From Bacillota bacterium (GTDB lineage Bacteria > Bacillota > Sulfobacillia > JAJZYS01 > JAJYTV01): a stretch of 64,000 nucleotides of DNA. Both the position numbers and the translations under genes were made by a program. Under the pieces are notes generated by a model. That model saw only the letters and a list, made by a program, of their open reading frames with translations. It did no database searches and had not been told where the DNA came from. Positions 4,314-18,781 of the stretch are shown here, in pieces; position 1 is the first letter of the stretch; the number at the start of each line of letters is the position of its first letter. The stretch is from the NCBI GenBank assembly GCA_021799275.1, contig JAJZAT010000018.1, positions 1 to 64,000 of the forward strand, in the 5' to 3' direction.

Positions 4314-6325
4314 TCGAGCAGGACCTTGTCACCATGATGCGCCGCTTCTGTTCCTGTAGGATCGGCCGGGCTCTTTAGAAGCGCCTGCAGATTGTCCGCC
4401 ACATTCTTGTGCCGCCGGACTTCCGTCTCCCAGCCACGCATCGTCGCGTCCCGGATGAGCAGCGTGACGTCTTCCAGCTGGCGCCGGATCGTCTCCTGCT
4501 CCTCCAACAGCGGCAAGAAGGCCGGACAGCGTTCGCAGACGTTGGCGACTGGACAGGCCTGCTGCGCTAGCTCGCGCAGGCAGTAGCCGTGGGCGAGTCG
4601 GGTCTTGAGCTTGCCGCTCTCAATCCAGTTGGAGTCCGGCTCCTCCTTGGATGCGGCCGCCGCAACCTCGACCATCGCCGGCGAGTACTGGCTCTTCGCT
4701 GCGCTGAGCGCTGCCTCGTACTGCTGGCGTACGGTCGCGTCGAAGAGGTTGCCGTAGCGCAGGCTCATCGTCGCGCTGACGTGTCCGAGCAGCCGCATCA
4801 GTGCCGGCAGGCTGATGCCGGCGTTGATCAGGGCCGTCGCGTAGGTGTGGCGGAACTGGTGGGGGCTGATGTGGATCGGCCGCCCCTTCGCGTCCACGAG
4901 GCCGGCAGTCAGCACTGCGCGCCGCAGGGTGTTTCGAATCAGGGCAACGCTGATGCGCCGGCCGTAGCGCATGAACAGAAACTCGGTGGGGCTGCCGGTC
5001 TCGGGGTGCGGCAGCGGCCGCACGGCGCCTCGTGCCTGCGCGACAGCGTCGAACATCGCCACCGTCTCCTCGTCGATCGGCACCATGCGCTCCGTGCGCA
5101 GCTTGCCGAGCGGCACCTTGAGCCAGGCTCCCTGGCCCGGCACCTGGTGCACGCAGTCGAGTTCGAGGTTTAGGAGTTCGCCGACGCGCAGTCCCGTGGC
5201 GCGCAGGATCTCCAGCGGGTAGCGCTGGAAGGGGGCCTGCAGCGTGTGGATCGCGGCCATCAGCCGCGCTTCCTGCTCATGCGGGATGAAGCGTGGCAGG
5301 GGCTTGTCCCGTTTCGGGACGTCGCTCGCGAAGAGCAGCCGCCTCTTGGGCGCCTCCGCCCAGCCCCATTCGGTGATGGTGTCGAGAAAGTACTTGACGT
5401 CCAGCACTGCGTGCTGACGGTCTCGCGCGCTGTAGCGCTGCGGCGCGCCGCCTGGCGGCGTCCACTCGCGCGTCGCGTTCCAGATGAGGTACGGCTCGAT
5501 GTGCGCGTCCCGGCGCAGATCACCGACGTTCTCCACCTCAGGGTGGTGCTCCGCGAGGTAGCGGGCGAACGGCACGAGCAAGTGGCAGTAGCCGATCACC
5601 GTCGAGGCGCGCCGCGTCGTGGCCATCTGTTCGACGTAGCGCAGCATCGTGGCCTTCAACCCCGGCTGCGGCACGCCTTGGAGGTAGCCGGCCCACGAGT
5701 GCTCACGCGCGTGGCCGTGGGGCGTGGGCTGCTCGAAGACTCCCAGGTGGTAGAGCACGGTCTCCGCCGCGAAGACGTGCAGGCGCCAGTAGCCGCCGTC
5801 GCGACCCGTCTCCCGCTCCCAGACCTCCGTGGCCCTGCGGAACTCCCGAAAGTCTTCGGGTGTCAACTCGCGCAGGCGCTTGCCGGTCTGCACCAGAACG
5901 CGCATCAGCACCTCAGTCAGCAGGCTTTGGATCAGAAAGGGGGTGAACCCGAGCTGCGGGGCGATCGCGGTCACCGCGGCGACGTCCTCCGCGTAGGGCG
6001 AGTGCGGCGCCAGCCGCACGAGCTGCGGATGGTGCGAGAAGAGGTAGGCGTAACCGGGCCTCAGGTGACTGTGCAGGAGCAGATAAGAGACGAACGAGTT
6101 CTCACTTTGTAGGAGGTCCCCAAGCGCCGTGGCCACCGTGGGGCTTTGCCAGTCGAGACCGTCGAGGCGGTCAAGCAGCGCCCTCGCGCCGCGCATGCGC
6201 TGGTACCTGGACTGGTACGAAAGGCCGAGCCTCAGGGTGAAGTCCGCGTAGTCTGCGAGTATCGCGGCGGCGTCCGGACGGGTTGGTACTTCCGTCTTGG
6301 CTCTACTCGCCGCCATGCTGTTCAC
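4307..6325 (-). CDS. Tyrosine recombinase, TnpB-like (Tn554 type)
   Basis: A 672-residue site-specific recombinase of the tyrosine integrase family, which cuts DNA through a 3'-phosphotyrosine. Catalytic landmarks are visible: Arg in RATGLRVGELLNLELDCV, the HxxR box in ISPHQFRHTYATAL, the second His in RLLGHVSATMSLRYG, and the nucleophile Tyr in that last block. After the catalytic domain comes a Cys-rich stretch (CLRELAQQACPVANVCERCP), as in TnpB of Tn554-family transposons, and a helical tail. It overlaps the upstream recombinase gene by 23 bases (start GTG 6325, or ATG 6316), which matches the coupled tnpA-tnpB arrangement of Tn554. No tnpC-like gene follows. Family assignment rests on length, Cys cluster and gene order. 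Confidence 0.75.
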   Translation of the reverse strand: MNSMAASRAKTEVPTRPDAAAILADYADFTLRLGLSYQSRYQRMRGARALLDRLDGLDWQSPTVATALGDLLQSENSFVSYLLLHSHLRPGYAYLFSHHPQLVRLAPHSPYAEDVAAVTAIAPQLGFTPFLIQSLLTEVLMRVLVQTGKRLRELTPEDFREFRRATEVWERETGRDGGYWRLHVFAAETVLYHLGVFEQPTPHGHAREHSWAGYLQGVPQPGLKATMLRYVEQMATTRRASTVIGYCHLLVPFARYLAEHHPEVENVGDLRRDAHIEPYLIWNATREWTPPGGAPQRYSARDRQHAVLDVKYFLDTITEWGWAEAPKRRLLFASDVPKRDKPLPRFIPHEQEARLMAAIHTLQAPFQRYPLEILRATGLRVGELLNLELDCVHQVPGQGAWLKVPLGKLRTERMVPIDEETVAMFDAVAQARGAVRPLPHPETGSPTEFLFMRYGRRISVALIRNTLRRAVLTAGLVDAKGRPIHISPHQFRHTYATALINAGISLPALMRLLGHVSATMSLRYGNLFDATVRQQYEAALSAAKSQYSPAMVEVAAAASKEEPDSNWIESGKLKTRLAHGYCLRELAQQACPVANVCERCPAFLPLLEEQETIRRQLEDVTLLIRDATMRGWETEVRRHKNVADNLQALLKSPADPTGTEAAHHGDKVLLDQ

Positions 6326-8394: not shown

Positions 8395-8646
8395 TCCAGG
8401 CTACGGCGTTGGCCTTGCGATGGTCGTCCTGAACCCGCTCCAAATCTGGGTCGGGGTCGTGCTTTCCTTCTCGGTGTGGGCGTCTCTCCATGGTCACACC
8501 TCGCCGGAGGAGTTTCATCTTCATCCAGCCGTGCTGGGGAGGCCAGGGGATGGCCGTGTGGTGGCCGTGCTGAAGCCGCTGACGATCCACGGAGAACCCG
8601 GCGCGATTGCAGGTCTCGGCGAAAATCTCAAAGGGTCCAGCCCAAG

Positions 8647-9087
8647 TTGAGCGTCTGGTGTTTTTGGACGATCTGGGCAGCGTTGCTGGCGGTCGGCGGA
8701 GTGGCGTCCTGGACGGACATTACGCGCCGGGTGATACCGAACCGCCTCCTGCTCGCCGGCGCACTCGCTGTCCTCGGCGTGGACGCGATCTCCGGGCGCA
8801 TCCTTCCGGCCCTTGAGGGCGGAGCGCTACTGGGGGTGCTTGGCGTCGTTCTATGGATGATGGGCTCTGGAGCGGGCGACGCGAAGTATCTGGCTCTTGT
8901 AGGCTTGGCGCTCGGACCTGTGATGGGGCTCGCGGCATGGTTTCTTGCCGCACTGACGGCGGTTCTCTGGCATCTGCCGACAGTCGTCCGCAAGGGCGTG
9001 AAGCTGGCAGTGGCCTTCGGTCCCTTCATCGCGTTCGGGTCAGTTCTGGCGCCTTTCCTCGTTCCGGTTCTCCTGCGAATGCCGTGA
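8647..9087 (+). CDS. Prepilin peptidase, A24 family (TadV/CpaA-like)
   Basis: A short membrane aspartyl protease of about 146 residues that would remove leader peptides from type IV pilin-like proteins. The two catalytic aspartates lie in the expected motifs: SWTDITRRVIPN near the N-terminus and GSGAGDAKYLALVGL in the middle. About five hydrophobic segments are visible. The TTG at 8647 is preceded by an AAAGGG ribosome binding site about 9 bases away; no ATG is available. The N-terminal methylase domain of long PilD proteins is absent, as in TadV/CpaA. No obvious type IV pilin is nearby, so its substrate in this element is unknown. Confidence 0.75.
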   Translation: MSVWCFWTIWAALLAVGGVASWTDITRRVIPNRLLLAGALAVLGVDAISGRILPALEGGALLGVLGVVLWMMGSGAGDAKYLALVGLALGPVMGLAAWFLAALTAVLWHLPTVVRKGVKLAVAFGPFIAFGSVLAPFLVPVLLRMP

Positions 9088-9129
9088 GGACGGTGTCGGC
9101 CGGGCTACTCAGCGTCGGGTCGAGCAAGC

Positions 9130-9669
9130 GTGCCCACGGCGCGCCAGAACGCACTGCCGAAGGGCCTGACCACGATGTGGGACATCGGCACCTCGAGCCA
9201 ACCATCCCGGGCTCGGCCCAACGTCACAGAGGGGCGCCGCGCACTCTCCCAGAGGGGGAACCATTGCTCCACCGGGGCCAAGAAGATGCTGTTCACCGGC
9301 CACCAGGCGACTGCCAGGAACTCGGTGCCGTGGGGCTCTCCACACAACAGCACCCCTACGAAGTCCACCACAACGCCGACCAATCCCACGTCCTCCACCG
9401 CTTCGAGCCAGGGAGGAACATCGATAGTCGCCCCTCCTGAGCCGCCTCCTCTCATCGACCCGCACCCTCCGCAGCACTACCAGCAGAACCTGCAAGGCCA
9501 GATGCAGACGGCGGCAGGCTCGGCGGGGACCTCGCACAGGAAGACAACGGCTCTCCCGTGGTGGCCGTGGGCGGCAGGTGTCCTCATCGTTCTGGTCGTC
9601 GCAGTATGGCAGTACCGCTCTTGGCAGCGGCGCAGGCTCTACAATCTCGGGCGACCTGGGAGGCAATGA
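9130..9669 (+). CDS. Pro/Thr/Ser-rich protein with C-terminal membrane anchor
   Basis: An open frame of 179 codons. The N-terminal two thirds are low in hydrophobicity and rich in Pro, Thr, Ser and Gln. A single membrane segment near the C-terminus (WAAGVLIVLVVAVWQY) is followed by a basic tail. Its stop overlaps the next gene's start (ATGA at 9666-9669), so the two are probably co-translated, which is the main reason to accept it. The true start may lie downstream of 9130. A protein-like frame also exists on the opposite strand (9105-9455), so this call is not firm. Function unknown. Confidence 0.45.
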   Translation: MPTARQNALPKGLTTMWDIGTSSQPSRARPNVTEGRRALSQRGNHCSTGAKKMLFTGHQATARNSVPWGSPHNSTPTKSTTTPTNPTSSTASSQGGTSIVAPPEPPPLIDPHPPQHYQQNLQGQMQTAAGSAGTSHRKTTALPWWPWAAGVLIVLVVAVWQYRSWQRRRLYNLGRPGRQ

Positions 9670-10829
9670 TGCGCTGGCGCTGGATATCCGCTCTCGGAGC
9701 GTTGGCCGCACTCGTGCTGGCGCTGCCGACCGCGCAAGCCCAAGACATTCCGATGTACGACGTGACCACGACGAGGCAACGGGTCGTGGTCGATCCGTCC
9801 GTAGGGCAGCACCAGTTGTACCTGTCGATGCCGCTCATCCTGGGCCACGAATCTGGCGAGGCCAGTCTTTCCACGCCCACCGTGATCGGCCAAGACCTCT
9901 ATCAGTACACCTACCAAGGCAGCACCGGCATCCTCCGTCAGTGGCAGTTACCGCAGGAGAATGCGGGTTCTCTCCTGCAACACTACGCGGGCGTGAATCT
10001 GCCGAGCAGCGTGTCAGCGAACGCCCAACTCCTGAACCATCTCCCCTTCTCGGTGGGCACCTACAGTGCGGCAGGGCAGGATTCCCTCGCGACCAACGCC
10101 GGCTGGCAGGCCATCGCGGTCGGCCAGTACCTCTATTGGTGGCGTGACGGAACGTGGCCGAGCAGCGCGAACGCCGCCGCCCATGTCCACATCTACGGCA
10201 ACCCGAACGACACGCTCAATCAGGTGGATATGAGCCCCCTGATAACGCCTCCTATCAAGGTCGACGTCCTCGACGCTGGCGGTAACGAGACCACCGTCAC
10301 CACGCCAGTCGCGGTCGCTTGTTCATGGAACGGCGGGTGTGCCATGCAGCCGCTTGGCTTGCCTGCGAGCGACTGGGTGCTCTACCAGAACTACTACACC
10401 ACCAGGGACTACTCGAACGATGGCGGTGCAGCGATCACCTCCGACCCCACCTACATCCCGTCCGAACCTCTCTTTGATGGGCATCCAGCCGTGGTCTTCG
10501 GGATCGCGTCGCCTTCGCACCCTCGGTTTGAGATGATCGACCTCACCACAGGGCAGTATCGCGCCGTGGGCGTCGGGACGATCAGCGGTCAGGTGGCCGA
10601 CACCGTCGTCTATGACCAGAGCGCTAACTTATTGATTGCCCAGGACATCTGGGGTGCGCTCTACGTGCTCAACCTTCACGGCGCACGCGAGGGAGTCTGG
10701 GGTGGCGCGGGTTGGATCAATGAGCCGAGTCCAATCCTGGGGCAGGATATGAGCTTTGACCCCAAAACCCAACGGATCCTTGCAATAGGTGGCGGGGGCA
10801 CCACTCTCGGCATGTTCACGGACATGTAG
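9666..10829 (+). CDS. Exported protein of unknown function
   Basis: The product has 387 residues. The ATG at 9666 lies 4 bases after GGGAGGC and overlaps the upstream stop. A signal peptide (MMRWRWISALGALAALVLAL, then PTAQAQ) predicts secretion. The mature part is rich in aromatic, Gly and Asp residues with many beta-prone segments, and the C-terminal half repeats blocks such as DTVVYDQSANLLIAQDI, which look propeller-like. I recognise no family. It is probably an exported accessory component of the element, made with the upstream anchored protein and perhaps the prepilin peptidase. Confidence 0.6.
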   Translation: MMRWRWISALGALAALVLALPTAQAQDIPMYDVTTTRQRVVVDPSVGQHQLYLSMPLILGHESGEASLSTPTVIGQDLYQYTYQGSTGILRQWQLPQENAGSLLQHYAGVNLPSSVSANAQLLNHLPFSVGTYSAAGQDSLATNAGWQAIAVGQYLYWWRDGTWPSSANAAAHVHIYGNPNDTLNQVDMSPLITPPIKVDVLDAGGNETTVTTPVAVACSWNGGCAMQPLGLPASDWVLYQNYYTTRDYSNDGGAAITSDPTYIPSEPLFDGHPAVVFGIASPSHPRFEMIDLTTGQYRAVGVGTISGQVADTVVYDQSANLLIAQDIWGALYVLNLHGAREGVWGGAGWINEPSPILGQDMSFDPKTQRILAIGGGGTTLGMFTDM

Positions 10830-10909
10830 CGGTCGCTCTCCGCGTCACTGTCAAACATCGGGTTCACTCCCTTCGCGACTTTCGTGGGGGATCGGTTTCA
10901 TGGGAGCCG

Positions 10910-11038
10910 TCACCTCCGTCGCGTGAGCAGCCGGCCACCGAGCCAGAGGACGCTCATCGCGACAAAGAACCATGCCCACGGCCTGCCCAGATGCGCGAGG
11001 TCGTAGACGAGCCAGCCGAGGTGGTAGAAGGTCCACAC
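10910..11038 (-). CDS. Very small membrane protein (42 residues)
   Basis: A GTG at 11038 follows GGAGGCGG from the end of the lytic transglycosylase gene, with the stop codon of that gene between them, so translation is probably coupled. The 42-residue product starts VWTFYHLGWLVYDLAHLG, has one hydrophobic helix (WAWFFVAMSVLWLGG) and a basic tail LLTRRR. It would be the last gene of the type IV secretion operon. No family is recognised. The good ribosome binding site and membrane-helix composition argue that it is real. Confidence 0.5.
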   Translation of the reverse strand: MWTFYHLGWLVYDLAHLGRPWAWFFVAMSVLWLGGRLLTRRR

Positions 11039-11041
11039 GGG

Positions 11042-12103
11042 CTAGCCGCCTCCCTTCTCGGGCTCGATCGTGATGCTGGCCGTGGCGCTGTGCCCGCCGG
11101 GCCACCTGGCGGTGACCCGGTAGGTGGCCGATCCTCGCACCCGGATGGCGAACGCCTGCTCACCCGGCCAGAGCGGCGCGTCTTGCGGGGACAGCGCCAT
11201 GGGGCGGCCGTTCGCGGTGACGGAAGCGGGCAGGGTTAGGTCGCGGCCGGTGAGCGGGTCATGCTGCCGAACGCAGGTGGTCACAGGCTTGCTGGTCTTC
11301 GGGTCTGTAGCGGTCTTGCAGACCGTCTTGCCAGGCTTCCACGGTACCGAGAACCTCGCGCCATAGGGGCCTGCCGCCGCGACGACGAGCCAGACCTGCT
11401 GACTCCTCCGCGCCTCCCACTGGTCGTTGCGGTAGTCCGCCGTGCTCCACACGGCGATGGTCGGGCCCGCCTCGTAGGCGGTGAGGTAGGATCGAACCGA
11501 CTCCGGGTAGGCGGCGTCGAACGAGGCCTGGCCGCCAGAGCCCGAATTGTACGCCTCCAAGGCGAACTTGAGGTACTTGTACTGCCGCAACTCGGCCTTC
11601 AGCTGGCCAACGCCGGCGGCGATGTTCTTGCCCGGGTCGAACGGATCTTGAGCGATGCCGAGGGACTGCCACTTCGCGGCCTTCTCGGGTGCGGGCCACC
11701 CTCCCGAGTTGATCTGCATGAGCCCCGCATCTTCGGAAAGCGTCTGCGTGCCGGGGTAGGCCTGGCCGCACTGCTCGCTGGCAGACAGCCCATCAGTGCA
11801 GTTGAAGTTCACGGCCAGCACCTGTCCACCGCTCTCGTGCGCCATGACGGCCATGACAAGCACGTTCGGCAGGCTTAAACCTGTGATCGCAGGCTTACCA
11901 AGCCAGAGCGCCGGCCTCGCCTCCGCCGTGCCGATCGGCGGCACCGTCGAGTCCGTGCCGGTTGCCCCACCGCCCAGGAAAACGGCGATCGCGGACATGA
12001 AGATCACGAACAGGACGATGAGCAGCAGCGGCAGCCCGAGCCCCGCACCGATCACCCAGCGCAGAGCCTTGTTGCCGCCGACCTGCAGGGCCTCCCTAGC
12101 CAA
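11042..12103 (-). CDS. VirB1-like lytic transglycosylase of the conjugation system
   Basis: About 353 residues. An N-terminal membrane helix (LPLLLIVLFVIFMSAIAVF) anchors a lytic transglycosylase domain that would cleave peptidoglycan to let the transfer channel pass. The catalytic Glu lies in MAVMAHESGGQVL, and later SLT blocks are visible as EDAGLMQINSGGW and ALEAYNSGSGG. A C-terminal Ig-like segment (YRVTARWPGGHSATASITI) follows. The start is unclear: TTG 12103 is in frame but has no strong ribosome binding site. It lies at the end of the element's minus-strand transfer genes, beyond the toxin-antitoxin cassette. Confidence 0.8.
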   Translation of the reverse strand: MAREALQVGGNKALRWVIGAGLGLPLLLIVLFVIFMSAIAVFLGGGATGTDSTVPPIGTAEARPALWLGKPAITGLSLPNVLVMAVMAHESGGQVLAVNFNCTDGLSASEQCGQAYPGTQTLSEDAGLMQINSGGWPAPEKAAKWQSLGIAQDPFDPGKNIAAGVGQLKAELRQYKYLKFALEAYNSGSGGQASFDAAYPESVRSYLTAYEAGPTIAVWSTADYRNDQWEARRSQQVWLVVAAAGPYGARFSVPWKPGKTVCKTATDPKTSKPVTTCVRQHDPLTGRDLTLPASVTANGRPMALSPQDAPLWPGEQAFAIRVRGSATYRVTARWPGGHSATASITIEPEKGGG

Positions 12104-12143
12104 GTCGCGCTGTTCGTCCGTGACGCGTCACCTCCTTCCATCG

Positions 12144-12176
12144 AAAAAGCCTCCCGGGCCAGAGGGCCCGAGAGGC
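12144..12176 (-). terminator. Rho-independent terminator after the AbiEii-type gene
   Basis: A 12-base stem (12149-12160 pairing with 12165-12176, one mismatch) with a 4-base loop is followed on the minus strand by five T (12144-12148). It would end transcription of the toxin cassette just before the lytic transglycosylase gene. Confidence 0.75.
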
Positions 12177-12213
12177 TCATGGGGTTTCTGCGCGAATCGT
12201 GGCTATTCTGTGG

Positions 12214-12987
12214 TCACAGTTCGAGATCCCCATCGCGCGCAGGCTTGCGAGGCGGAATACGGCCTGCTGGACGGTTGGGCGGCGCGGAAGATTCTCGCGC
12301 CGGGCTGCTACTGAGGACCCTGGAGACGACGCCCACTTCCGGGATGTGCCGCACCTCCGTCGACGCCCGTACCAGTGCAGCCCGCTCCGCAGACCCCACG
12401 GTGTCAAGGTTGCCGTCGCCGAAATAGGTCAGTGCCCGGAGACTCTCGGTGGGTTGGAAGGATACGCCGTAGAGCGCCCGCGCCGCACCGAGGCCCTCCG
12501 GGAGGTTCATGCCTGCCCGGAGCAGCGCAGCGAGATCCCGGTAGTCCTTTGCCTCGGCCCGTTGCGTGATGACCGCCAGCTTGGTTGCCATGAGATCGAG
12601 CAGCGACGCCACCTGCAACACGCCGTCGCTGCTGATGTCAGGCTCGCCGACGCGTCCGAACTGCATGCCGCCGAAGAATGAAAGGTTCACGGGCGCATCT
12701 GCTCCGGAGTCGGAGGTCGATTGCAGAGACACCGAGAGGGTGTCCGGCCGGTCCAGAAGGGTTGCAGCTGGACCCAAGGGCGCGAGGGCTGCCCGCAACG
12801 TAGCCTTGTCCAGTGGGCGGTCGCTGAAGAAATCGAAATCGACCGATTGGCGGTTGCCGAGTCTCAGGGCGATGGCCGTGCCTCCGTAGAGGACGAAGCC
12901 CAGACGGGTCACCGGTTGCAGTCCGGGCCACACACGCCGCTGCTGAGCGGGCAGCACCTCGAAATGCGGTGTGAACGGTGCACTCAT
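12214..12987 (-). CDS. AbiEii-type nucleotidyltransferase toxin
   Basis: 257 residues with the nucleotidyltransferase signature FVLYGGTAIALRLGNRQS followed by VDFDFFS, the GG...DxD active site of AbiEii/type IV toxins, which in characterised members transfer nucleotides to tRNA. The helical C-terminal domain (KDYRDLAALLRAGMNL) also fits. It overlaps the upstream gene by 4 bases (12984-12987), giving tight coupling with the DUF6922-like partner that usually accompanies such proteins. Such pairs stabilise mobile elements or act in phage defence. Toxin activity is inferred from family. The gene ends in a clear terminator. Confidence 0.8.
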   Translation of the reverse strand: MSAPFTPHFEVLPAQQRRVWPGLQPVTRLGFVLYGGTAIALRLGNRQSVDFDFFSDRPLDKATLRAALAPLGPAATLLDRPDTLSVSLQSTSDSGADAPVNLSFFGGMQFGRVGEPDISSDGVLQVASLLDLMATKLAVITQRAEAKDYRDLAALLRAGMNLPEGLGAARALYGVSFQPTESLRALTYFGDGNLDTVGSAERAALVRASTEVRHIPEVGVVSRVLSSSPARESSAPPNRPAGRIPPRKPARDGDLEL

Positions 12988-13397
12988 GCTAATGCCCGCC
13001 GTGGCAGCGGCGGGACGGCGCCGAGGTCACAGAGGCCGAGGCGATAGTGCCAGTAGTGCCAGGAGCGCTCGTCGAACCAGCCGGCTTGCGCATGGGTAAC
13101 CACGTCGCGCAGCATCGCGTCGCCCAGGAGCCGCGCGATCCGCTCGATGTCGTCGAAGTCGCCCATGTTCATCGTCCTGGCAATCACCCGTTCAGGGTAG
13201 ATAGCGGCTTCTTCCGGCGTCTCCCACCAGACGTAGCGCGCCACGATGGCCCGCCAGGTCTGGTCGTCGATGCGACCCCGGATGAACGCGAAGCTGGACG
13301 GTTTAGCCGTCTGTTCCAGTCGGGACACACGGGGCACCCCCTTGTGGCGAGTATAGCCTAAGAGAACCTGCCAGACCGGAAAATCCAAGAGTCTCAC
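12984..13397 (-). CDS. DUF6922-like partner (probable antitoxin) of the AbiEii protein
   Basis: 137 residues from the GTG at 13397, which overlaps the previous stop (GTGA). The C-terminal half has the pattern of proteins usually encoded before AbiEii nucleotidyltransferases: RYVWWETPEEA, then RTMNMGDFDDIERIARLLGD, and WHYWHYRLGL. An antitoxin role is inferred from this partnership rather than from a visible DNA-binding motif. An internal start near the RVSRLEQT segment is possible. Confidence 0.65.
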   Translation of the reverse strand: MRLLDFPVWQVLLGYTRHKGVPRVSRLEQTAKPSSFAFIRGRIDDQTWRAIVARYVWWETPEEAAIYPERVIARTMNMGDFDDIERIARLLGDAMLRDVVTHAQAGWFDERSWHYWHYRLGLCDLGAVPPLPRRALA

Positions 13398-13588
13398 GCT
13401 AGCTGCTGCACAGTCCGACTCCGGCGCCGCTGGGCCAGCGCGGCCCGCGCCGCACGGCGCCTCTGCAGAGCGGCAAGACGCCGCAGCGCGCCTTCGGCGG
13501 CTGCAAGCGAACGACTGCCGCGGCTGCGCAGCAGGCGCACACGGTCCTGAAGCGCCACGATGGCCTCCACGAGGTCGGCGTCCGTCAT
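13394..13588 (-). CDS. Small basic coiled-coil protein
   Basis: 64 residues, all predicted helical, with an acidic N-terminus (MTDADLVEAIVALQDRVRLL) and a very Arg-rich second half. It is the first gene of a three-gene unit whose members overlap by 4 bases each, leading into the AbiEii pair, so it is probably part of the same toxin-antitoxin cassette or a regulator of it. Family not recognised. Confidence 0.5.
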   Translation of the reverse strand: MTDADLVEAIVALQDRVRLLRSRGSRSLAAAEGALRRLAALQRRRAARAALAQRRRSRTVQQLA

Positions 13589-13612
13589 GCGATCACCCCC
13601 AGCAAAGGCAGC

Positions 13613-13645
13613 AGCCCTCCCCGGCCGTGTTGGCCTGGGAGGGCT
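13613..13645 (-). promoter_or_regulatory. Hairpin between virB4-like gene and toxin cassette
   Basis: Inverted repeats AGCCCTCCC (13613-13621) and GGGAGGGCT (13637-13645) form a 9-base stem, extended partly inside the loop. No T-run follows on either strand, so it is a weak terminator or an RNA-processing/attenuation structure in the gap between the virB4-like stop and the cassette start. Confidence 0.4.
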
Positions 13646-13751
13646 CAGTCTCGCTGTTCAGCGGTCGCGGCGCCAGGGATCGGCGCCCATAGAAGGGCAG
13701 TACGGTGGCTCCACGCGCCGACGCAACGAGGTAGCCATCCAACCGGATCGG

Positions 13752-15539
13752 TTAGCCGTACATGAGCGCCGTCTCGTGCGGCGCCGTGTCGATCTTGACC
13801 CACGCGCGGTGATTGCCGGCAATCAGGAGGCCCTCGCCGCGCCGTGCACCGCGCAGCTTCTCCTGCTCGGCCTCCGAGAGCCGGAAGAGCGCGGCGACAG
13901 TCGGCAGGTCCTTCGCCTCCTGGCGCAGGAGGATCTTCGTCGAGGCGTTAGCCAGCACAGGCTCGCCCTCACGAGCCACCTCGGGCGCCAGAAAGTCGAC
14001 GGCGTTCTGGGTGACGACATTCACCGAGCAGCCATACTTGCGCGCGCGCTTGGACATGCGCTTCAAAAACCCGAGCGCCTGCGGCACGTTCGGATCGACC
14101 AGCATCCACGCCTCGTCCACGACGAGCATCTTGCGCTCGCTGCGGTCCCGACGGATGAGATCCCAGGCAAAGCCGAGCACATTGGCGTACTGGGCGCGCT
14201 GCACGTTTTCGGGCGCGTTGTCGAGGTCATGGATGTCGAGCACCACGAGGTCGGCATCCGGCATGGCCACGCTCGGCCCGGCCCAAAGCCCGGCATCGGT
14301 GCCAATCGCGGCATCCTCCAAAAGTGCGGCCAAGCCCTGCCACTCCGCACCCTCCTGGCGCTCGGCGTAGGCATGGAGGTGACCGACATGCGGCCATGCG
14401 TCAGGTGCGATGGTGGCCGGGTCGGCATGGAGGGGAATCCCGGCCTCGTCGTACACGGCCCGAATGGCGCGGGCGAGCAGAGCCTTCTGCATCTCGGTGA
14501 GGCCGGGAAGGTAGAGGTCGAGCACGAGGCGCACGCGCTGGATGTGCTGTGCGATGGCCAGGACGTTCGCATCTTCGTCTTCGTCATCCTCTCGTGGAAG
14601 AGGCGGCGCCTGTAGCAGATTGATGCGCTGTCCGCCGCCGCCGGCGTTGACCCAGGCGCCGTGCAGCTCCCGGCAGAGGTGACGGTACTCGCGCTCGGGG
14701 TCGATAATCACGACCCGCACGCCCATGGCCCAGAGGCGCAGAATGAGGAGCTTCATCGCGTGCGACTTGCCGACGCCAGGCGTCGCAAGCACGGTTACGT
14801 GCTGGTTTGCGATCCCGGCATCCGGGGGCGGGGCAAAGGTGTCGAGCAGCACCAGGCCGCCCGAGGTGTCGTGCCCAAGCACGACGCCGTGGCCGTGGTT
14901 GATGCCGCCCGAGGAGAACGGGAAGCTCGCCGCGAGCGTCTCGGCGGGAAGCTGGAACGGCGCGGTGCCTTGCAGCTCCTTGGGGAAGAGGCCCCAGGGA
15001 CCGACCGCCCTCATGCCGTCCTCCTGCTTGAACGCGAGCGGCCGTGCGCGCATGCCAGCCGCGGCGAGCATGCCTTCGAGACGCTTGCAGCGCCGCAGGC
15101 CCGTCGCCTCATCGGGCGCCGTGACGAGGGCGAACACGCCGACGGTGAATACGCTCTGCTGCTCCTGGTCGATCTTGCGCAGCAGGCCCTGGGCGTCCTG
15201 GATCTGCTGCTCCATACGCTGCTGCGAGATGGCCGAGCCGCCCTGCGCGAGCTGTCCCGCGAGCAGGGAGATCGCGCGGCTCATGGCGAGGGTGATCTGC
15301 GTCGGGTCGGTCGGCAGGGCGTGGACGGAGAGCGTCACCCCTTCGAGGTTCGCCACCGTTGCGAGCCAGCCGGCGTCGACGCTCGGTGGGAAGCTCGCCA
15401 CGGTGTAGACGCGGCCCCACTGGGAACCGAGATCCACGGCCCTGCGCTCGAAGAGCAGGGCCTCGGGCGCGAAGGCGTTGCGCAGCGCGGCGCCCGGCGT
15501 TGCCGTGGTGGTCGCATGCTTCTTGGGCACGGTAGTCAC
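13752..15539 (-). CDS. VirB4-family conjugation ATPase
   Basis: 595 residues. This family forms hexameric ATPases that power type IV secretion in conjugation. Walker A is ATPGVGKSH at about residues 252-260, Walker B is KMLVVDEAWML near 460, and the C-terminal arginine-rich motif region (RMSKRARKYGCSVNVVTQN) is typical. The N-terminal part before Walker A is about 250 residues. Start choice is between two GTG codons 9 bases apart after GGAAGGAG. The gene follows PrgI and TraC-like genes in the same direction, as in other Gram-positive elements, with an intervening tRNA gene. Confidence 0.9.
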   Translation of the reverse strand: MTTVPKKHATTTATPGAALRNAFAPEALLFERRAVDLGSQWGRVYTVASFPPSVDAGWLATVANLEGVTLSVHALPTDPTQITLAMSRAISLLAGQLAQGGSAISQQRMEQQIQDAQGLLRKIDQEQQSVFTVGVFALVTAPDEATGLRRCKRLEGMLAAAGMRARPLAFKQEDGMRAVGPWGLFPKELQGTAPFQLPAETLAASFPFSSGGINHGHGVVLGHDTSGGLVLLDTFAPPPDAGIANQHVTVLATPGVGKSHAMKLLILRLWAMGVRVVIIDPEREYRHLCRELHGAWVNAGGGGQRINLLQAPPLPREDDEDEDANVLAIAQHIQRVRLVLDLYLPGLTEMQKALLARAIRAVYDEAGIPLHADPATIAPDAWPHVGHLHAYAERQEGAEWQGLAALLEDAAIGTDAGLWAGPSVAMPDADLVVLDIHDLDNAPENVQRAQYANVLGFAWDLIRRDRSERKMLVVDEAWMLVDPNVPQALGFLKRMSKRARKYGCSVNVVTQNAVDFLAPEVAREGEPVLANASTKILLRQEAKDLPTVAALFRLSEAEQEKLRGARRGEGLLIAGNHRAWVKIDTAPHETALMYG

Positions 15540-15575: not shown

Positions 15576-15596
15576 AAAGCCGCCCGTCTGGGCGGC
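15576..15596 (-). terminator. Rho-independent terminator directly after the tRNA-Trp
   Basis: A perfect 7-base GC stem (GCCGCCC at 15579-15585 with GGGCGGC at 15590-15596) has a 4-base loop and is followed on the minus strand by TTTC. It lies 11 bases past the encoded CCA of the tRNA gene, so the tRNA appears to have its own transcription end, upstream of the virB4-like gene. Confidence 0.65.
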
Positions 15597-15607
15597 CTCG
15601 TTGAATT

Positions 15608-15683
15608 TGGCAGGGCCGGAGGGAGTCTCACCCTCGTCCTCCGGAGTTGGAATCCGGCGCTCTGATAGCTGAGCTACGGCCCG
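15608..15683 (-). tRNA. tRNA-Trp (anticodon CCA), structurally unusual
   Basis: 76 bases fold as a tRNA: acceptor 15677-15683 with 15612-15618, D stem GCTC/GAGC, a perfect 5-pair anticodon stem with loop TTCCAAC, a 5-base variable loop, T stem GAGGG/CCCTC, discriminator G and encoded CCA. Anticodon CCA reads UGG (Trp), and G73 is the usual bacterial Trp identity base. Odd points: the D loop has A18-U19 instead of G18-G19; the T loop is TGAGACT with G55-A56 instead of T55-C56; positions 1 and 72 do not pair (C-U). The 19-56 contact could still pair as U-A. It lies inside the conjugation genes and has a terminator. It could be a decayed gene or an element-specific tRNA. Confidence 0.7.
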
Positions 15684-15750
15684 GCACGCCAGCTTACGAT
15701 CCGGCGCACCCTCAAGATATGGGCGAGCCGGGGCGGTGTCAACCAGGCGC

Positions 15751-16403
15751 TCATCCAGCCATCCCCCGTTTGAGCATGGGCGGCAGCCGCAGCCCGTCGG
15801 GCACGCTCTCGACGGCCGCCTGCCCGCCGTGGAAGGCAAGGAAGAGAAGCTCGCGCCAGTCGGCTTCCGACATGACGCGCGCCTGCATGCCGGGCGCGCG
15901 ACCGAGGTCGTCCGCGAGCGCCTGAAGAGACGTGCGGTGCTCGCGCACCGCATCGGGCCCAGTGCGTGTCACGAGGATGCAGTACTGGCGCTCCACGGCC
16001 TCCCCGGAGCGCATGAGCCCATGCACCCAGCCGAGATAGTCGCGCAGCACCGCCTTGCGGCGCGCGTCTGCGTTTGCGAGCATGCCGTCGAGCGCGGCAA
16101 GGTAGGCGTCGAGGTCGACGGGCCGGAAGAGCGAGAGAATCTGAAACGGAACCTCAACCCGTTCAGCGCCGCGTGGACGGCTCCGACGATGGCCCGCGTC
16201 TCGTTCTCGCTCTTGAGCTGCAGGCTCAGCGGCGACACGGCGATCCCCCCGACCGCCGCCTCGTCCGGCCGGATGAGGCAGCCCTCCCGCAGGTCCGCGA
16301 GGGGAAGCCAGTCTTGCGCGGCTTGACGGGACGGCAACGCCGCGTTGTCGGGTGCGGGGCCGGATGCCTTCTTGGCTCGCAGCAGTGCCGGGAGCTTCAT
16401 CAC
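15751..16403 (-). pseudogene. TraC-like conjugation protein, frameshifted
   Basis: The first part, read from GTG 16403, looks like the TraC-like domain that accompanies VirB4 in Gram-positive elements (QDWLPLADLREGCLIRPDEA, then LQLKSENETRAIVGAVHAAL). At about 16150-16163 the frame is lost, and the family pattern continues in the next frame as VEVPFQILSLFRPVDLDAYL to the stop at 15751. The joined product would be about 217 residues. One base seems to be missing near AACGGGTTGAGG, and no classic slippery heptamer is present. It is either an inactivating mutation or a sequencing error. The start overlaps the PrgI stop by 4 bases. Confidence 0.65.
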
Positions 16404-17010: not shown

Positions 17011-17934
17011 TCAACTGCCTCCCCGCCCGAACAGTCCCATGATCGCCCTGGCGCCGCCACCCTGGTTGAGCACGACGCCACCGACGTAGCCGCCGGCGCT
17101 CGCAAAGCCGCTGCGGTAGCTCCACTGCTGCAGCAGGTGCGGTCCACGCACAGTCGCCCAGGCCCAGCCGAGCATCAGCAGGATGACCAGGAACATCTCC
17201 GGCGTCGCGGCAGCCGCTGCTCCGGCCGAGGTGGCGATGCCGTCCATGAGCGGCTGGACCGAAGCCAGCATGCCTTTGAGGCCGAGCCACTGGACGGCCT
17301 GGGACAGGGAGAGTACGACGAGCCCTCGCCACCAACTGCTCCACACCCCGCCGTCGCGGTTGAACTGGCCTAGAGCCACAATCGGCGCAGCCACAACGTA
17401 GTACACGAGTTCCGCCGCCCGCACCGCCATCTGCAGGGTCACGATGATGATGGCGACGACCGCACCCACGACGCCGAACAGCAGAAAGAGCACTGTGCCG
17501 ATCACCACGCCTGGCGCGGATGCGATGTCCGTCACGAGCGCGTGCGCGACATGCACACTGGACGCCATTGGCGCGGACATGTAGGCAGCCGCCAACTCGA
17601 TCCCGAAGTTGAACACGCCATAGGCGAGGGTGGTGCCCGCCAGCCCGTAGAAGGCGACACGCATGAGCCCTTTGCCGAGCGTGCCGGTCACGTCGCTGGA
17701 TGATCCCTCATTCCACAGCACGTACTCCGTGAGCGCCCGATACGTGAGGTTCAAGAGCAAGAGCCCGCCCGTCACCGCCACGGAAACGTCGATAACCCCC
17801 TGTACCCAGGGCTGCTGCGCCACCGTGAGACTGTAGTGTGAGATGCCAGACAGCACCTGCGCCAGCAAGCCGAGGGCGCCCGAAAGAATGCCTTGGATCA
17901 TCGCTGAGAGGCCGCTCATCACGAGACCGCCCAC
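17011..17934 (-). CDS. TrbL/VirB6-like multi-spanning membrane protein
   Basis: 307 residues with about seven hydrophobic segments, for example VIDVSVAVTGGLLLLNLTYR, GVVIGTVLFLLFGVVGAVVAIIIV and EMFLVILLMLGWAWATV. It has the size, topology and position of the VirB6/TrbL inner-membrane channel component. I placed the start at GTG 17934 because GGAGG lies 7 bases upstream; the in-frame region before it overlaps that ribosome binding site. A Gly-rich C-terminus is typical. Assignment is by topology and context rather than a strong motif. Confidence 0.7.
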   Translation of the reverse strand: MGGLVMSGLSAMIQGILSGALGLLAQVLSGISHYSLTVAQQPWVQGVIDVSVAVTGGLLLLNLTYRALTEYVLWNEGSSSDVTGTLGKGLMRVAFYGLAGTTLAYGVFNFGIELAAAYMSAPMASSVHVAHALVTDIASAPGVVIGTVLFLLFGVVGAVVAIIIVTLQMAVRAAELVYYVVAAPIVALGQFNRDGGVWSSWWRGLVVLSLSQAVQWLGLKGMLASVQPLMDGIATSAGAAAAATPEMFLVILLMLGWAWATVRGPHLLQQWSYRSGFASAGGYVGGVVLNQGGGARAIMGLFGRGGS

Positions 17935-17957
17935 ATGATCACCTCCGTACAATGAGA

Positions 17958-18695: not shown

Positions 18696-18781
18696 TGGTG
18701 CCGGGGGCGGGACTCGAACCCGCATGGTGTCGCCACCGGAGGATTTTAAGTCCCCTGCGTCTGCCATTTCGCCACCCCGGC
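18696..18781 (-). tRNA. tRNA-Leu (anticodon TAA)
   Basis: 86 bases with a perfect acceptor stem GCCGGGG/CCCCGGC, discriminator A, encoded CCA, the long variable arm of class II tRNAs, T loop TTCGAGT and anticodon loop CTTAAAA, giving anticodon TAA (reads UUA). Its 3' end faces the conjugative-element genes at lower coordinates, so it is the likely integration site, although I found no second copy of the 3' end in the window. Confidence 0.93.

Follow-up and report, generated by a model that had tools for sequence, protein, structure and literature searches.

Does the tRNA-Trp-like gene that lies among the conjugation genes of a Bacillota contig (JAJZAT010000018.1) encode an ordinary elongator tRNA, a decaying copy, or an RNA kept for another purpose? 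The whole stretch of DNA that was analysed (64,000 nt) is referred to below as the window.

A predicted transcription unit between two conjugation genes

A cloverleaf RNA was read at window positions 15683-15608 (-) and was identified as tRNA-Trp(CCA) by ARAGORN (called 15608-15683 (-)). Its body matched Rfam RF00005 with 55.2 bits against a gathering score of 29, and none of the other Rfam families was above its gathering threshold (Tymo_tRNA-like, 21.9 vs 40). The parts of the unit and the genes around it are as follows.

15714..15742 (-), sigma-70-like promoter TTGACA-17-TATCTT (10/12 match, spacer 17; 0/50 region shuffles)
15684..15709 (-), 5′ leader hairpin GUGCGCCGG-AUCGUAAG-CUGGCGUGC, 26 nt, abutting the tRNA-like body
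15608..15683 (-), tRNA-Trp(CCA)-like body with CCA encoded at 15610-15608 (direct reading, ARAGORN, Rfam and folding)
15663..15670 (-), D loop AGCUAUCA (positions 14-21), A18 U19 replacing G18 G19 (sequence)
15624..15630 (-), T loop UGAGACU (positions 54-60), G55 A56 replacing U55 C56 (the same in the related genome G001)
15576..15599 (-), terminator-like hairpin with a short T-run (folding of the transcript)
17011..17952 (-), upstream conjugation gene, TrbL (PF19597; Pfam)
13752..15539 (-), downstream neighbour, virB4-type conjugation ATPase (Pfam AAA_10/TraG P-loop)
12214..12987 (-), gene for an AbiEii nucleotidyltransferase, slot 3′ of virB4 (PF08843, 66 bits)

The promoter ends a few bases 5′ of the leader hairpin, so the RNA is predicted to start at or near the hairpin foot. 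The whole transcript was predicted to fold into the 5′ hairpin, the cloverleaf and a GC-rich terminator-like hairpin (z = -3.6), and the tRNA part folded alone gave a modest gain over shuffles (z = -1.8). In the initial annotation, the locus was described as a tRNA followed by its own terminator. The unit proved to be larger, as the promoter and the leader hairpin had been overlooked. The downstream hairpin folds, and in G001 the RNA is likewise followed by a hairpin that shares this GC-rich stem, but the T-run in the window is short and the pattern scanner gave it no terminator score. Promoter, leader hairpin, tRNA-like body and terminator-like hairpin by prediction form one small transcription unit, and we infer that this promoter drives its transcription.

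A rewired elbow on a tRNA-Trp core

The body is laid out as CGGGCCG-UA-GCUC-AGCUAUCA-GAGC-G-CCGGA-UUCCAAC-UCCGG-AGGAC-GAGGG-UGAGACU-CCCUC-CGGCCCU-G-CCA. Nearly all tRNAs have GG at 18-19 and UC at 55-56, and the elbow is among the most constant tRNA features. Here it consists of A18-U19 and G55-A56, with both G18-U55 and G19-C56 absent, and C1 stands unpaired opposite U72. Direct reading bore out all of these bases, together with anticodon CCA, G73 and the encoded CCA, as first annotated. The remaining core was normal (U8-A14, U54-A58, G73, encoded CCA and a five-base variable loop), and the anticodon, U33 and the cloverleaf are features of elongator tRNA-Trp. The T-stem pairs 49-65 and 51-63 are G49-C65 and G51-C63, so the pairs that weaken EF-Tu binding in the Staphylococcus aureus class of non-proteinogenic tRNAs are absent, which counts against a non-elongator role.

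The elbow was compared with 76 tRNAs called by ARAGORN in the host and collected region by region. The window RNA alone lacked both the D-loop GG and the TTC start of the T loop, aside from tRNA-Sec, whose T loop was misread by the simple slice used. Judged against these 76 tRNAs, the odd elbow is not due to chance. The UCA at 19-21 is complementary to the UGA at 54-56 in the window and in G001 (U19-A56, C20-G55, A21-U54), and a D-loop triplet complementary to 54-56 was found in 3 of the 76 host tRNAs. All three pairs may not coexist, because U54 normally pairs with A58; U19-A56 appears to be the best supported of them.

Conservation in a diverged element

A second intact copy was found in another species of the same genus (G001; record JAJYSZ010000086.1, Bacillota MAG DX1.bin73). 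There, too, the unit is flanked by virB4 and the same conjugation gene upstream, with one more small ORF preceding it. Across the RNA, 98 of 102 bases were identical. All stem bases of the tRNA body were unchanged, as were the entire T loop, D-loop positions 18-21 and the CCA; of the three differences in the body, two fall in the D loop, which reads AACCAUCA in G001 and retains A18 U19 C20 A21. The VirB4 proteins of the two elements are 90% identical, with a dS of 0.50 for virB4 and differences at 34% of four-fold-degenerate sites. The probability of four or fewer differences in the RNA was about 1e-13 at the four-fold rate and 8e-4 at the overall rate of virB4. The G001 promoter (TTGACA-17-TACGTT) stands at the same distance with a heavily changed spacer between its boxes, so promoter and distances were retained amid diverged flanks.

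The combination U19-A56, which the initial annotation had proposed to look for in related elements, thus recurred without change in G001, whose element is diverged from that of the window. A normal tRNA-Trp at the same place was seen in none of the related elements examined. In these two intact copies, which belong to one genus and one element lineage, the pattern is strong evidence that the RNA is under purifying selection, short of proof since local exchange between elements is possible.

Decayed copies in another family

Copies were also found in two sister genomes from another family of the order (G012, JAJZLY010000029.1; G013, JAJZLH010000074.1). Both genomes carry 84%-identical copies, hairpin included, which lie near toxin-antitoxin-like ORFs, away from conjugation genes. 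Their D, anticodon and T stems are broken and ARAGORN rejects both. They appear to be decayed on account of the broken stems; silence of ARAGORN alone is no proof of decay, because the G001 copy also went unreported with all its stems intact.

Both decayed copies have A18, and their elbow carries G-C at 19-56 where the intact copies have U-A, and G-U at 21-54 where the intact copies have A-U. Shuffles of the four sequences reached the observed covariation in 15 of 500 cases. This covariation is suggestive only, since one compensatory change may be coincidence and the G012 and G013 copies are not independent of each other. For the elbow as first annotated, U-A at 19-56 stood and covaries with the relatives (UA vs GC), whereas A18-G55 is not the sole option for the neighbouring contact, as C20-G55 is possible.

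These copies bear on whether the window RNA is itself a decaying tRNA retained by chance. Broken, ARAGORN-rejected relatives would fit such a history, as would the placing of two of the three body differences between window and G001 in the D loop. However, identity at 98 of 102 positions stands against the dS of 0.50 in the adjacent gene, and the two intact copies show no change in stems, T loop, positions 18-21 or CCA. Chance retention is therefore improbable. The earlier view of a specialised tRNA-like RNA held up, in that the variant elbow is the same in diverged G001 and 19-56 covaries with the decayed relatives; recent decay seems unlikely from these comparisons.

Partial tRNA-Tyr repeats were seen near the decayed copies (L011, about 9287-9586; L010, about 6026-6206; in G012 and G013), which suggests a small integrated element beside a tRNA-Tyr gene in these genomes.

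The 5′ leader hairpin

Homology among the relatives begins 26 bases 5′ of the tRNA body, and the leader hairpin is present in 4/4 copies with a constant loop, AUYGUAAG. The stems differ among copies yet still pair, with one two-sided change. The G013 leader has a different but still paired stem (GCGCGGCG/CGCCGUGC) and the loop AUUGUAAG; that of G012 has the same loop type and one stem mismatch. No such hairpin was found before the canonical tRNA-Trp genes of the host and its relatives, and an origin from the leader of a host tRNA-Trp gene was dropped on this ground. The conserved hairpin with its fixed loop suggests a partner, and makes the RNA look like a dedicated small RNA beyond an odd tRNA.

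Distribution

The RNA was found in four genomes only (the window host, G001, G012 and G013). A covariance model built from the four copies was run on 154 genomes from within the class and on a phylum-wide sample of 398. It gave four matches above 100 bits; all others scored 67 bits or less, and those inspected were ordinary tRNAs. In the 398 sampled phylum genomes, the hairpin-plus-acceptor pattern matched G012 and G013 only. DNA patterns run on one genome per species (~85,000 species) matched 31 contigs, among which only G001, G012 and G013 scored as the tRNA-Trp-like RNA; some of these patterns are tied to the GGGCCG acceptor, so that relatives with another acceptor escape them. Among viral contigs, the hairpin-plus-acceptor pattern gave 45 matches, 0 of them with a tRNA-like body after it, and the body and T-loop patterns gave none; phages likewise gave no match to the RNA. 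Plasmid matches in Thermus and Miltoncostaea were rejected as tRNAs with a normal elbow.

The slot before virB4 and the AbiEii gene

The conjugation genes of the window resemble those of the Sulfobacillus thermotolerans plasmids pY0017 and pL15, and VirB4 matched VirB4 of pY0017 at 54%. In pY0017, pL15 and the element G001:C2, no tRNA-like RNA precedes virB4, and the preceding gene abuts or overlaps it; in genomes G009 and G030, other small genes occupy this slot. The slot is thus variable in content, which points to a cargo slot and counts against a core control device. A cis-acting, tRNA-shaped attenuator of virB4 and the downstream conjugation genes would suit an RNA that lies on the coding strand amid these genes and has a terminator-like hairpin after it. 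Against it, virB4 is not preceded by such an RNA in sister elements or in the Sulfobacillus plasmids, the RNA has a predicted promoter of its own, and the decayed copies are not beside conjugation genes. We rank this account a little below chance retention.

An AbiEii-type gene 2.6 kb from the RNA had been noted as a possible link, and its presence was confirmed (PF08843). AbiEii genes follow virB4 in both RNA-bearing elements and are lacking in G001:C2, the third copy of the slot that is visible in full, which also lacks the RNA. MenT relatives extend tRNA acceptor ends (PMC10435456), so the RNA could serve the AbiEii tRNA nucleotidyltransferase as an antitoxin-like partner or divert it as a decoy. 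However, the two AbiEii proteins are only 23% identical, their small partner genes are unrelated, and no AbiEii gene lies on the contigs of the decayed copies. With two cases only, the co-occurrence is no evidence of a system, and we consider such a partnership the least probable of the explanations weighed. Downstream of virB4, AbiEii-type pairs unrelated to each other occupy the slot in the two related elements (window 12214-13397 (-); L009 813-1818 (-)), and G001:C2 has none there.

The conjugation gene upstream of the RNA (window 15751-16403 (-)) is frameshifted near 16,110 relative to the intact G001 frame, by assembly error or in reality. A tRNA-Leu(UAA) at 18696-18781 (-), bordering the run of conjugation genes, is a possible integration site; integration there was not retained, as a second copy of its end was not found in the window.

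Translation or another use

The position-specific features of the RNA bear on whether it serves in translation. The identity set of tRNA-Trp for Bacillus-type TrpRS includes G73, G2-C71, G3-C70, G4-C69 and CCA (PMC9976931), and all of these are present. The minor element A1-U72 and a closed acceptor end are absent (C1 in the window and U1 in the other three copies, each opposite U72), so that position 1 is without pairing to U72 in 4/4 copies. Charging with Trp is plausible because these identity positions are mostly kept (PMC9976931). A second TrpRS dedicated to the RNA was discarded as a candidate, with one trpS per genome in six genomes, and no consuming non-ribosomal ligase was found among ten proteins scanned around the RNA in two elements.

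The open 1-72 end and the lost G18-U55 contact would be expected to weaken use in elongation. General background on initiator tRNAs and the S. aureus cell-wall tRNAs (PMC4052509) form the basis of this expectation. The RNA has probably been retained because it serves some purpose, which most likely lies outside ordinary protein synthesis.

With gene structure, predicted fold, conservation and distribution established, we tentatively place first a dedicated non-elongator tRNA or tRNA mimic, encoded by a self-contained small-RNA gene that serves as accessory cargo; this role is our inference. The gene lies in the slot between two conjugation genes, and its product would consist of a 5′ hairpin with a fixed loop and a tRNA-Trp-like domain. 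This domain retains the core fold, along with most of the positions that TrpRS recognises, and lacks the 1-72 pair and the G18-U55 contact, its elbow being rebuilt by Watson-Crick pairs, 19-56 and possibly, in intact copies, 20-55 and 21-54. Open 1-72 and altered elbow would bar the RNA from normal elongation. In the preferred form, it would engage a tRNA-binding enzyme as a decoy or as a substrate, and so protect the element or tune the host. A more specific proposal is a new small-RNA class on conjugative elements. Its members would join an AUYGUAAG-loop hairpin to a tRNA-Trp mimic, with the elbow closed by a kissing contact of three pairs between 19-21 and 54-56, and would act outside translation by targeting a tRNA-handling enzyme as decoy, substrate or regulator. 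This class as a whole seems doubtful.

Next after the non-elongator reading, and rather unlikely, comes an extra translation-competent tRNA-Trp that replaces the host copy, its altered elbow and ends sparing it from a nuclease or toxin that attacks host tRNA-Trp. The anticodon CCA, U33, G73 and the GGG/CCC acceptor are kept, as this would need. Altered elbows in the host also fall on mobile DNA, in 4 of 33 tRNAs there against 0 of 42 others (P = 0.03), and tRNA arrays are regarded as putative anti-defence (PMC12803027). A lone tRNA-Trp(CCA) lies before a helicase gene at the same place in the Thermus plasmids pTTJL1802 (L190 2497-2572) and pTHEOS02 (L191 2497-2572), so single plasmid-borne tRNA-Trp genes may recur; however, these have a normal elbow. 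Moreover, the 1-72 position is unpaired in all copies of the element-borne RNA and a conserved hairpin abuts position 1, neither of which a translation tRNA needs.

Relation to known tRNAs

Like canonical bacterial tRNA-Trp, the RNA has the cloverleaf, CCA anticodon, G73, G2-C71/G3-C70/G4-C69, U8-A14 and U54-A58; unlike it, it is without G18/G19/U55/C56 and A1-U72 and has a 5′ hairpin. The non-proteinogenic tRNA-Gly of the Staphylococcus aureus cell wall has UU or CU in place of G18G19 and offers a precedent for an altered elbow (PMC4052509). As in that tRNA-Gly, G18-G19 are replaced while cloverleaf, anticodon and discriminator are intact (PMC4052509). In contrast, the window RNA has a Trp anticodon, 49-65 and 51-63 pairs that are not weakened, a place on a conjugative element, a 5′ hairpin and an open 1-72. 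tRNA-Pyl and type II mitochondrial tRNAs likewise lack G18, G19 and TPsiC (PMC7609411), but their D loops are short or their cores altered in other ways, whereas the window RNA has standard arm lengths.

Like phage, plasmid and ICE tRNAs and the units of tRNA arrays, the RNA is encoded by mobile DNA and has diverged from the copies of the host (PMC12803027; 32-gene array of the host). Unlike the arrays, it is a single gene with its own promoter, leader and terminator-like hairpins, between conjugation genes; a dense tRNA cluster is absent at the window locus, where the next tRNA is 3 kb away. Element-borne and non-elongator tRNAs are already known, and what is new is the variant with a rewired elbow and a 5′ hairpin. 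A conserved tRNA-Trp variant with 19-56 swapped, G18-U55 and 1-72 lost and a hairpin of its own is a natural experiment on the role of the elbow, and points to a mobile-element RNA that may imitate tRNA to handle host or rival enzymes.

The 32-gene array lies on a prophage-like contig (L163, G000:C49:15000-32745, tRNAs at 8612-14219), assigned to prophage by reading ORFs (serine recombinase-like, RecT-like) rather than by profile search. One tRNA-Arg(UCG) of the array has G18-A19 with U55-U56, so 19-56 is A-U, and its tRNA-Trp is without GG in the D loop.
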